Made by a program: the position numbers and the translations under genes
Virus record (IMG/VR): IMGVR_UViG_3300021432_000017
Location: 1-43,727 of that record
Length of the DNA stretch: 43,727 nucleotides
Reading direction: 5' to 3' (one strand)
Source: a virus
Notes under the pieces: model-generated
Databases searched by the model: none
What the model was told of the DNA's origin: nothing
The model's input: only the letters and a program-made list of their open reading frames with translations
In this document: in pieces, positions 22,141 through 24,308 of the stretch
Layout: every line of letters begins with the position of its first letter
Numbering within the stretch: the stretch's first letter is position 1

Positions 22141-22889
22141 GCTATCTCCTCGAAATTGAATACAGACTGTCTTAGGCGGTTGGCGGCTATCTCGCAGTAC
22201 TTTTCTTCTAGCTCTATGCCGATGGCTTTTCTCCAGCAACTTTTCGCGGCGAGAAGAGTAGTACCGGAACCCATAAACGGATCTAGGATCGTTTGTCCCT
22301 CCTCCGTGAAAAGTTCGACCAATTCGATCATCAGAGAAATAGGCTTCTGTGTTTGGTGTTGATTCGGACCCGCTGCGCCCACGTCGCGCTTATTGTGAAT
22401 AAACACGCCGCGCTTGCCGCCGCCATTCCATACACTGCGACCAGCGCCTGCCCACGACGCCACGATGCTCTCGTACCCCATCCCCGGCCTATCGCCGCTC
22501 AATTGGGGCGCTCCATCGGGCTTTACCCACACCATTGACCGCTTATAGGAAGCCCCGAAGGCCGACAGGCTATCTCGCCATATTGCGACGGCCTCGGCTT
22601 GACAGAAAACGAGTGCCCAACCAGAGCACAGCCGTCCAATCTCAGCCGACACTTCTACGCGTGTCCTTTCGTCCATTGGCGCAAAGGATAGTGGGGCAGC
22701 ATCAATTTCCCTCTTACTCGAAATGGCAAGTTCCGCAACGCGCCCGTTCAGCCGTCTCCCCGCGGTGTGGGCCTCGGCCTCGTATGGTGGGTCGGTAATT
22801 ACATGATCCACCGCTCCACAACGGGGTAGGACTTCCAAGCAGTCGCCATGCCAGATCGTTATCCCCGCCTCTTCGTAATACGGCTTCAT
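22137..22889 (-). CDS. DNA N4-cytosine/N6-adenine methyltransferase
   Basis: 250 residues. ATG 22889 overlaps the VRR-NUC stop (ATGA). Motif IV is DPPY (33-36) and motif I is DPFMGSGT (203-210), so the order IV then I is that of beta-group enzymes; HQTQKP (about 178-183) is a further family mark. It transfers methyl from S-adenosylmethionine to an amino group in DNA, likely to protect phage DNA from host restriction. Target sequence cannot be read from the protein. DPPY fits adenine as well as cytosine-N4. Confidence 0.9.
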   Translation of the reverse strand: MKPYYEEAGITIWHGDCLEVLPRCGAVDHVITDPPYEAEAHTAGRRLNGRVAELAISSKREIDAAPLSFAPMDERTRVEVSAEIGRLCSGWALVFCQAEAVAIWRDSLSAFGASYKRSMVWVKPDGAPQLSGDRPGMGYESIVASWAGAGRSVWNGGGKRGVFIHNKRDVGAAGPNQHQTQKPISLMIELVELFTEEGQTILDPFMGSGTTLLAAKSCWRKAIGIELEEKYCEIAANRLRQSVFNFEEIA

Positions 22890-23206
22890 AGGGCCCCGTT
22901 CTCCTTCAGCCACGCCTTCACGTCCTCTGCCGACCTTGCCACTAGGTAGGGGTGGCCAGCAGCCTCTGCCTTTGCCTGAAACTCAACCTGCGACTTTCTC
23001 TGCTTGCCCTTGAGTTGCTTCATTTCGATCCAGCCAACGCCAAAGCCTTTCTCGGGATATACGACTAGGTCGGCCGTACCCGTAGGGCAGAGATGCATGA
23101 AGCCGCCGCGGACCTTGACCATGCCAGACTGCAGCCGCATCCAGAACAGGCCGTAGACGGTGAGGAGGTCTTGCACTTCGCCCTTGAGTTTTGTTTCGGG
23201 GGTCAC
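22886..23206 (-). CDS. VRR-NUC domain nuclease
   Basis: 106 residues, GTG 23206 overlapping the Dcm stop (GTGA). An N-terminal helix is followed by G-x-F-W-M-R-x-Q-S-G-M, then PTGTADLVVYPEKG and GWIEMK, and SQVEFQAKAEAAGHPYLVAR, which are the catalytic D...E-x-K and the Q-x-x-F helix of VRR-NUC (PD-D/ExK) enzymes. Such small phage proteins are thought to cut branched DNA during replication or recombination. Confidence 0.85.
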   Translation of the reverse strand: MTPETKLKGEVQDLLTVYGLFWMRLQSGMVKVRGGFMHLCPTGTADLVVYPEKGFGVGWIEMKQLKGKQRKSQVEFQAKAEAAGHPYLVARSAEDVKAWLKENGAL

Positions 23207-24225
23207 GCTGCCTCCAGTGCTTGCTTGATGCGCCTTGCTATCATCTCGGGGATTTGAGGGACTACGGCATTGCCTAGTCCCCTAAGGCGGTCCACTCGCT
23301 TGGGTATCCCATGAGCCACTCGACCCACGTTGGGTTCAATGAGCCACCAGTCATTTGCAGACCAATCTCCCGGCCCACCATCTCGTGTACCTTCTTCCTG
23401 GCGCCGCTGCCACCGTTCAAACCCGTCACCCCTCCGCCCTGTTGATTCGCACTCGGGGTTGGCCAGCGCACAGATTGGTTCACCGCTCGGCCCAACTCGT
23501 TCCCGCTGGGTCCATTGCTCCTGCCGTCCTTGCTGAATCCGTGTGGGGTTGGCCATGTGCGGTTGGCTACCACGTCTTCCAGGCGGCATCCCGCATCGCT
23601 CCTCCCGGTCTTCCCGTATGCCATTGCTGGCGATGCTCTCGGCGTCGGCCATTTCGCCGCCTCGTCGTTCAGGTTGCGTCCGCCGTGCTTCGTTCCGTAC
23701 CGGCCAACCCTCGCAGGATTTCCTTTGCCCGCATCGTGGGCCTGTGGTGTAGGCCATAATCCAGACGCGCTCTCTGAGGTGGGGCGCTCCCATGTCGGCC
23801 GCTGAAACGACTTCCCACTCCGCGTCATACCCGATCTCGGCCAAGTCTCCGAGAACAACGCCCATTCCCCGTCCAAGCAAAGCTGCGACGTTCTCCACGA
23901 GGACGTAAGCGGGTCGTAGTTCGCGAATGATTCGGTGCATCTCGCTCCAGAGTCCGCTTCGCTCTCCCTCGATTCCTGCCCGCTTGCCGGCGTTGCTGAT
24001 GTCCTGGCAGGGGAAGCCTCCGCAGATAACGTCAACGGATTTGAGGTTGTGTCTGCCGCATTCTCTGATGTCTCCAAAACGCCCTGCCTCCGGGAAATTC
24101 TTTGCCAAAACCTTCTGGCAGTAAGGGTCTATTTCAACCTGCCAAACCGTCTTGAAGCCTGCTCGCTCAAAGCCAAGATCGAAGCCACCGATACCGGCGA
24201 ATAGACTGCCCATTGTGTAGGTCAT
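23203..24225 (-). CDS. DNA C5-cytosine methyltransferase
   Basis: 340 residues. ATG 24225 with TTGAGG upstream was chosen over 24249. Motif I is LFAGIGGFDLGFERAG, motif IV GGFPCQDIS (catalytic Cys73), motif VI ENVAAL (111-116), motif VIII RERVWIMAY, and motifs IX-X RLRGLGNAVVPQIPE. The enzyme methylates C5 of cytosine in phage DNA. Residues about 160-275 are a hydrophilic, Arg/Gly-rich variable region with MADA, MANP and ALANP units; this is where a second frame (23274-24077) encodes WPTP repeats. Neighbours are coupled on both sides. Confidence 0.95.
   Translation of the reverse strand: MTYTMGSLFAGIGGFDLGFERAGFKTVWQVEIDPYCQKVLAKNFPEAGRFGDIRECGRHNLKSVDVICGGFPCQDISNAGKRAGIEGERSGLWSEMHRIIRELRPAYVLVENVAALLGRGMGVVLGDLAEIGYDAEWEVVSAADMGAPHLRERVWIMAYTTGPRCGQRKSCEGWPVRNEARRTQPERRGGEMADAESIASNGIREDREERCGMPPGRRGSQPHMANPTRIQQGRQEQWTQRERVGPSGEPICALANPECESTGRRGDGFERWQRRQEEGTRDGGPGDWSANDWWLIEPNVGRVAHGIPKRVDRLRGLGNAVVPQIPEMIARRIKQALEAA
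23274..24077 (-). CDS. Overprinted WPTP-repeat protein inside the methyltransferase gene
   Basis: 267 codons open in the +1 frame, same strand as the C5 methyltransferase and wholly inside it. It has WPTP at residues 108, 143, 175 and 205, SPARTSA near 22, SSWRTSQLCL near 60, SETWPRSGM near 77 and NPTWVEWLMGYPSEW at 248-262. I recall free-standing phage proteins with the same WPTP and NPxWVEWLMGFP motifs near cytosine methyltransferases, so this frame may be a true second gene. Motif pairs arise because GTGGCCGACCC-type DNA reads VADP in one frame and WPTP in the next. The start (TTG 24077) is uncertain, and function is unknown. Confidence 0.5.
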   Translation of the reverse strand: METSENAADTTSNPLTLSAEASPARTSATPASGQESRESEADSGARCTESFANYDPLTSSWRTSQLCLDGEWALFSETWPRSGMTRSGKSFQRPTWERPTSESASGLWPTPQAHDAGKGNPARVGRYGTKHGGRNLNDEAAKWPTPRASPAMAYGKTGRSDAGCRLEDVVANRTWPTPHGFSKDGRSNGPSGNELGRAVNQSVRWPTPSANQQGGGVTGLNGGSGARKKVHEMVGREIGLQMTGGSLNPTWVEWLMGYPSEWTALGD

Positions 24226-24308
24226 GGATGCCTCAAGTAGAACTTCCAAATCAAGTGCTGCAGCTTGTACGGGCTGTGCCAGTAGATGAACCTTGCTAGC
24301 TTACGCAT
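24222..24308 (-). CDS. 28-residue coupled minigene
   Basis: ATG 24308 lies inside the end of the DUF1376 gene, and its TGA overlaps the methyltransferase ATG (ATGA). The peptide (MRKLARFIYWHSPYKLQHLI, then WKFYLRHP) is basic, aromatic and helix-forming. It fills the 70-base gap between the two genes exactly, which supports a coupling minigene. Confidence 0.5.
   Translation of the reverse strand: MRKLARFIYWHSPYKLQHLIWKFYLRHP

Follow-up and report, generated by a model that had tools for sequence, protein, structure and literature searches.

The closest described systems are two-polypeptide C5 DNA methyltransferases (MTases), among them M.EcoHK31I and its isoschizomer M.EaeI. The small subunit of EcoHK31I is encoded in an alternative frame within the large one, as Lee, Kam and Shaw are said to have described in 1995. 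In M.EcoHK31I, the large subunit carries motifs I-VIII and X and the small subunit carries motif IX, and M.AquI is divided as I-VIII / IX-X (PMC3404938). The target-recognition domain of M.EcoHK31I has been assigned to the large subunit in the literature, by prediction.

The stretch of DNA analysed here (the window) is a 43.7 kb virus record, in which matches to portal, tail, Gam-like and annealing proteins indicate a tailed phage. Its C5 MTase gene very probably encodes an enzyme split into two polypeptides: a catalytic half, alpha, and a recognition half, beta, nested within it. Alpha (23203-24225, minus strand) was read from ATG 24225 and has 340 aa; its open reading frame (23203-24249) reaches further upstream, to TTG 24249. 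Alpha matched phrog_363 and, over residues 12-170 only (motifs I-VIII), the Pfam family PF00145 (E 2.1e-53). When the window was checked for the motifs of C5 MTases (PF00145), motifs I-VIII (PCQ, ENV, motif VIII arginines) were present in alpha, and both IX and X were found only when the two frames were counted together.

The original prediction had placed a second open frame of 267 codons inside the MTase gene, on the same strand, and this frame was confirmed at 23274-24077 (minus strand). It lies in +1 relative to the MTase frame, starts with TTG and would encode a beta polypeptide of at most 267 aa (284 codons from stop to stop). Four WPTP modules were found at beta residues 108-111 (23745-23756), 143-146 (23640-23651), 175-178 (23544-23555) and 205-208 (23454-23465), all on the minus strand; their predicted first residues (108, 143, 175, 205) were exact, as was the NPTWVEWLMGYPSEW ending that beta carries at its C-terminal end. 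The enzyme frame beneath the modules had been read as VADP/MANP, which was close: from the first module to the fourth, alpha has MAYTT, MADAE, MANPT and LANPE. The stretch NPTWVEW begins at beta residue 248, and motif IX (NPTWVEWLMGYPSEWT; 23289-23336, minus strand) is in the beta frame, where alpha reads EPNVGRVAHGIPKRVD and both frames are constrained. Motif X (LGNAVVP; 23257-23277, minus strand) is in the alpha frame, and the beta stop codon (23274-23276) overlaps its first codon. Beta matched phrog_1008, a phage 'DNA methyltransferase' family (E 3.6e-36), and had no match in Pfam.

Two other genes of the neighbourhood, both on the minus strand, were noted. A small ORF (22886-23206), which weakly matched families of phage endonucleases and Holliday-junction resolvases, starts inside the end of the MTase gene, with a 4 nt overlap. 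An N4/N6-type DNA methyltransferase gene (PF01555; 22137-22913) lies two genes downstream of the C5 enzyme, so that the phage carries two kinds of DNA methyltransferase.

Set beside the described enzymes, the window resembles M.EcoHK31I at the level of sequence: the large subunit has motifs I-VIII and X without IX, and motif IX is in a second frame. It differs in two respects. The recognition domain of M.EcoHK31I is predicted in the large subunit, whereas the variable region of the window family belongs to beta by dN/dS (0.78 alpha, 0.23 beta); and the window system is phage-borne, with no restriction enzyme partner identified among the near neighbour genes of its MTase. By analogy of motif division, the window system probably works like M.EcoHK31I, with a nested layout of the same kind. 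M.AquI, another C5 MTase, is likewise split at a point past motif VIII and short of the end, but in the window beta is nested in alpha and motif X remains with alpha.

Relatives were collected in three ways, and all counts are lower bounds on prevalence. Selection by the second frame gave at least 35 genome loci and at least 80 viral loci, selection by the MTase frame alone gave at least 80 viral loci (60 after removal of redundancy), and a DNA pattern covering just the WVEWLMG motif gave at least 80 readable loci. In nearly all loci picked by the MTase frame, a motif IX-like NPxWVEWLMG[YF]P was found in +1, and the MTase frame held motif X (LGNAVVP), as a rule 20 codons after motif IX. The arrangement was clearly nested in 61 of the 80 pattern-picked loci listed, the rest being mostly cut by contig ends or ambiguous. 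It recurs among phages of widely different hosts.

The +1 frame was open in all 60 non-redundant viral loci picked by the MTase frame (longest run 144-358 codons), and in 54 of them the run exceeded that of synonymous-codon shuffles at p<=0.01. For the window gene, the longest +1 runs averaged 143 codons in synonymous shuffles (p=0.003) and 176 codons in a harsher shuffle that preserved +1 codon content (p=0.027). Scored with a profile of relatives that share under 45% identity with it, the window +1 frame reached 258 bits, compared with 108 +/- 13 (maximum 149) for 500 synonymous shuffles. Over the variable region only, the same profile gave 37 bits for the window, 7 +/- 5 for the shuffles and 19 +/- 4 for the shuffle preserving codon content.

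Alignment of the homologues, which had been proposed as a check, showed reduced synonymous change of the MTase frame in the overlap. At its end, over motif IX, synonymous MTase-frame codons are frozen (GGT 47/47, GTG 48/49, GCT 49/50, GGG 49/50); one further site is H, N, Y or D in the MTase frame with a codon of the form xAT in 49/50, which keeps L-M-G in the second frame. The freeze relaxes right after the beta stop codon. Across 53 independent pairs, substitution at alpha codon positions 1/2/3 showed the normal wobble pattern on both sides of the overlap (.107/.069/.354 before,.142/.093/.367 after). The variable region gave.261/.140/.138, so that there the second frame's wobble position changed fastest. 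Frame-specific dN/dS (34 pairs, bootstrap intervals) for alpha/+1 was.11/.98 before the overlap,.15/.31 in the part of the overlap with the motifs,.28/.24 over motif IX and.17/.82 after the overlap. In the variable region it was 0.78 (0.61-1.01) for alpha and 0.23 (0.17-0.30) for beta. Both frames are thus under protein-level selection in the overlap; within the variable region, selection acts on the WPTP frame, while the MTase frame is close to neutral yet is kept open. For the variable region of the window itself, the values were NS.49, SN.35 and NN.34, and its nearest relatives are too diverged for a clear alpha/beta contrast, so the variable-region contrast is a claim at the level of the family.

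When beta synonymous codons were shuffled in 51 loci, 215 alpha-frame stops were expected in the variable region and 0 were seen; these loci had been required beforehand to hold motif X in the alpha frame, so the zero is partly built in. The same point is made by the third frame, where stops were not avoided (296 seen, 273 expected, same region and loci), and by loci with a closed alpha frame, in which motif X moves to beta. Since motif X lies beyond the variable region, the simplest interpretation has alpha translated across it, into a protein whose middle part matters little.

These results bear out the conserved dual-coding system of the original prediction, through the open +1 frame in relatives, the frozen synonymous codons and the frame-specific dN/dS. 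Free loss of the second frame, a lack of constraint beyond the enzyme frame and WPTP proteins present only as shadows were looked for, and none of the three was found. The suggested joint evolution of the enzyme's variable region with a second protein has to be inverted: in that region, the WPTP frame is selected and the MTase frame is the nearly neutral one. Nor does the second protein look like an unrelated passenger; it is most likely the specificity half of the same methyltransferase, with the target-recognition region and motif IX.

The second frame is constrained from about MTase residues 97-105 onward, so the first ~40 of beta's 267 residues, and hence its exact start codon, are uncertain. 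TTG 24077 is a plausible best candidate for the window: a Shine-Dalgarno-like GGAGG (24087-24091, minus strand) stands 9 nt upstream of it, at a position shared with the relatives L127, L128, L150 and L157. As a universal start this TTG was rejected, as some relatives have in-frame stops downstream of the site, and the position of the beta start codon varies among relatives. In the listed loci, candidate start codons lie upstream of the constrained part of beta.

Relatives in which the two halves are arranged differently serve as natural controls. In ShiLan gp70, WillSterrel gp71, Tweety gp72 and prophi91-4 gp24, the PTP-repeat region and motif IX are in frame with motifs I-VIII and X, in one polypeptide. 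The single-chain enzymes of Cheoctovirus (ShiLan gp70, Tweety gp72) thus share this recognition and motif IX region, PTP repeats included, and have it joined to I-VIII, but they differ from the window in having one frame and one polypeptide; codon position 3 is the fastest in the recognition region of the ShiLan-type fused gene, as in an ordinary gene. Fused ShiLan gp70 matches both phrog_363 (alpha) and phrog_1008 (beta) in one frame. PHROGs keeps these two as separate families, and neither description records two frames of one gene.

WPTP proteins apart from the enzyme frame, which had also been foreseen, were found in Firecracker (gp5), Lilbooboo (gp33), the free gene of locus L040 and the tandem loci L239 and L249. 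Alpha ends after motif VIII, and a separate beta has IX and X where the alpha frame is closed, in Firecracker gp6/gp5, Lilbooboo gp32/gp33, L239 and L249, which is the AquI layout; motif X is on beta in the tandem relatives L001, L002, L239 and L249, and beta occurs with a closed alpha frame in L239, L249 and L284. In L040, alpha retains X, the nested frame has decayed (one stop, motif IX lost), and a free-standing, non-overlapping beta gene (L040:2983-3765) directly follows alpha, a natural un-nesting. Given these fused, tandem and relocated relatives, the simplest account makes beta the small domain of this enzyme, the one for target recognition, encoded in the second frame.

Several variants were observed among other loci. 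In phiBT1 (NC_004664; L006:1757-2860), gene 9.1 is annotated 'DNA methylase may be inactive' and is followed by a geneless stretch whose open +1 frame has PTP repeats, EWLMG and GNGVVP, an unannotated beta; the phiBT1 enzyme may be complete. At L046:2124-3156, PTP repeats are in +1 and motifs IX and X are both in the alpha frame, so that beta would hold the recognition region only. The +1 frame of L215:1038-2528 (Paenibacillus polymyxa plasmid pAP1) has two LNPxWVECLMGFP copies with stops between them, and looks as if the end of beta had been duplicated within alpha. At L043:2678-3760, motif IX is in the alpha frame and motif X in another frame, which would be either an assembly frameshift or a fusion intermediate. 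In the Paenibacillus phage Tadhana, both nested ORFs (L213:1271-2341 and 1473-2177) have been deposited as 'DNA methyltransferase'. Several Paenibacillus phage records carry two methyltransferase features at this place, so annotators had noticed the overlap; no paper commenting on it was found in the open-access literature.

In alpha, PCQDIS, ENV and GAPHRRDR were invariant or nearly so among 105 relatives. The AF2 model of alpha had a pLDDT of ~97 at residues 1-160 and 320-340 (the motif X helix) and mostly <50 at residues 165-305, and its folded part matched M.HhaI and M.HaeIII in Foldseek. Alpha is accordingly predicted to be an M.HhaI-like domain with a disordered middle and a motif X helix. 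Residues 165-305 (23311-23733, minus strand), which lie over the beta variable region, are a predicted disordered, passive linker by AF2, dN/dS and stop avoidance. Modelled alone, beta gave a mean pLDDT of 57 and a pTM of 0.22, and its profile had no match by sequence among solved structures (PDB); its small-domain fold is suggested by motif IX and the fusions.

In one alternative, the second frame would be only a shadow cast by the MTase frame: conserved alpha motifs and codon bias would yield the open +1 frame, WPTP and WVEWLMG, and there would be no second protein. One stretch does resemble such a shadow: over alpha motif IV (residues 57-96), position-3 change is about.30, near its pre-overlap level. 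From about residue 97 onward, however, the shuffles, frozen codons, position rates, dN/dS and profile score all reject this reading, beta is present where no alpha frame underlies it (L040, L239, L249), and in the variable region it is alpha rather than beta that looks like the shadow. The position-specific and frame-specific substitution rates, together with the synonymous shuffles, refute it, and we give it practically no weight.

Two further explanations accept the second frame as coding. Ribosomes that begin in alpha could slip +1 once past motif VIII, read on in the beta frame and slip back ahead of motif X, yielding one full enzyme; motifs I-VIII, the recognition region, IX and X would then follow in canonical order in a single chain, as in the fused single-frame relatives ShiLan and Tweety. 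Such recoding is very unlikely: two shifts in opposite directions are required, and the listed loci have candidate start codons ahead of the part of beta that is constrained. The double frameshift is disfavoured because alpha is kept open in the variable region, where a recoded enzyme would have no need of it, and because constraint on beta already begins within motifs IV-VIII, at a point where a frameshifting ribosome would not yet have left alpha. Alternatively, beta could be translated with another role, for instance in regulation or in inhibiting host restriction, in line with its lack of a Pfam or solved-structure match. We regard this as even less probable, since alpha has neither motif IX nor a structured recognition domain, beta carries motif IX and the variable region, and fused and tandem relatives place beta exactly at the small-domain position of a C5 MTase; M.EcoHK31I shows that motif IX in a separate subunit is possible (PMC3404938).

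In the preferred two-polypeptide reading, the MTase frame would give the alpha subunit, with the AdoMet-binding and catalytic domain (I-VIII), a long unconstrained linker and the motif X helix. The +1 frame, translated from a start of its own, probably internal to the same message, would give beta, a small domain with the WPTP target-recognition region and motif IX. Alpha and beta would assemble as a heterodimer into one active methyltransferase. Sequence specificity would be set by the WPTP region, and the likely role of the enzyme would be the modification of phage DNA against host restriction.

To our knowledge, it is rare outside small viruses for overlapping genes on one strand to be long, widely conserved and clearly under selection in both frames, and the function of the second frame of overlapping genes is usually unknown. 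Here, the function of the second frame can be named, and un-nested controls exist in nature. An earlier description of nested C5 MTases across phages was not found in the open-access literature. Apparently new are the breadth of the arrangement in phages and the membership of the variable region in beta; the motif split has its precedent in M.EcoHK31I. The family offers naturally split methyltransferases usable for targeted-methylation tools, for which M.EcoHK31I has already been employed (PMC3439449).

More broadly, we think it likely that these genes form a large, previously unrecognised class of phage C5 MTases, in which the recognition module is in an alternative frame and the main frame serves there as a neutral, stop-free spacer. 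Specificity could then vary through one frame and leave the other undisturbed, and current annotation would capture the variable region in the wrong frame only. Should specificity be set by beta, specificities read from the annotated 'variable region' of such enzymes use the wrong frame, and phage methylases called possibly inactive, such as phiBT1 9.1, may be complete two-subunit enzymes.
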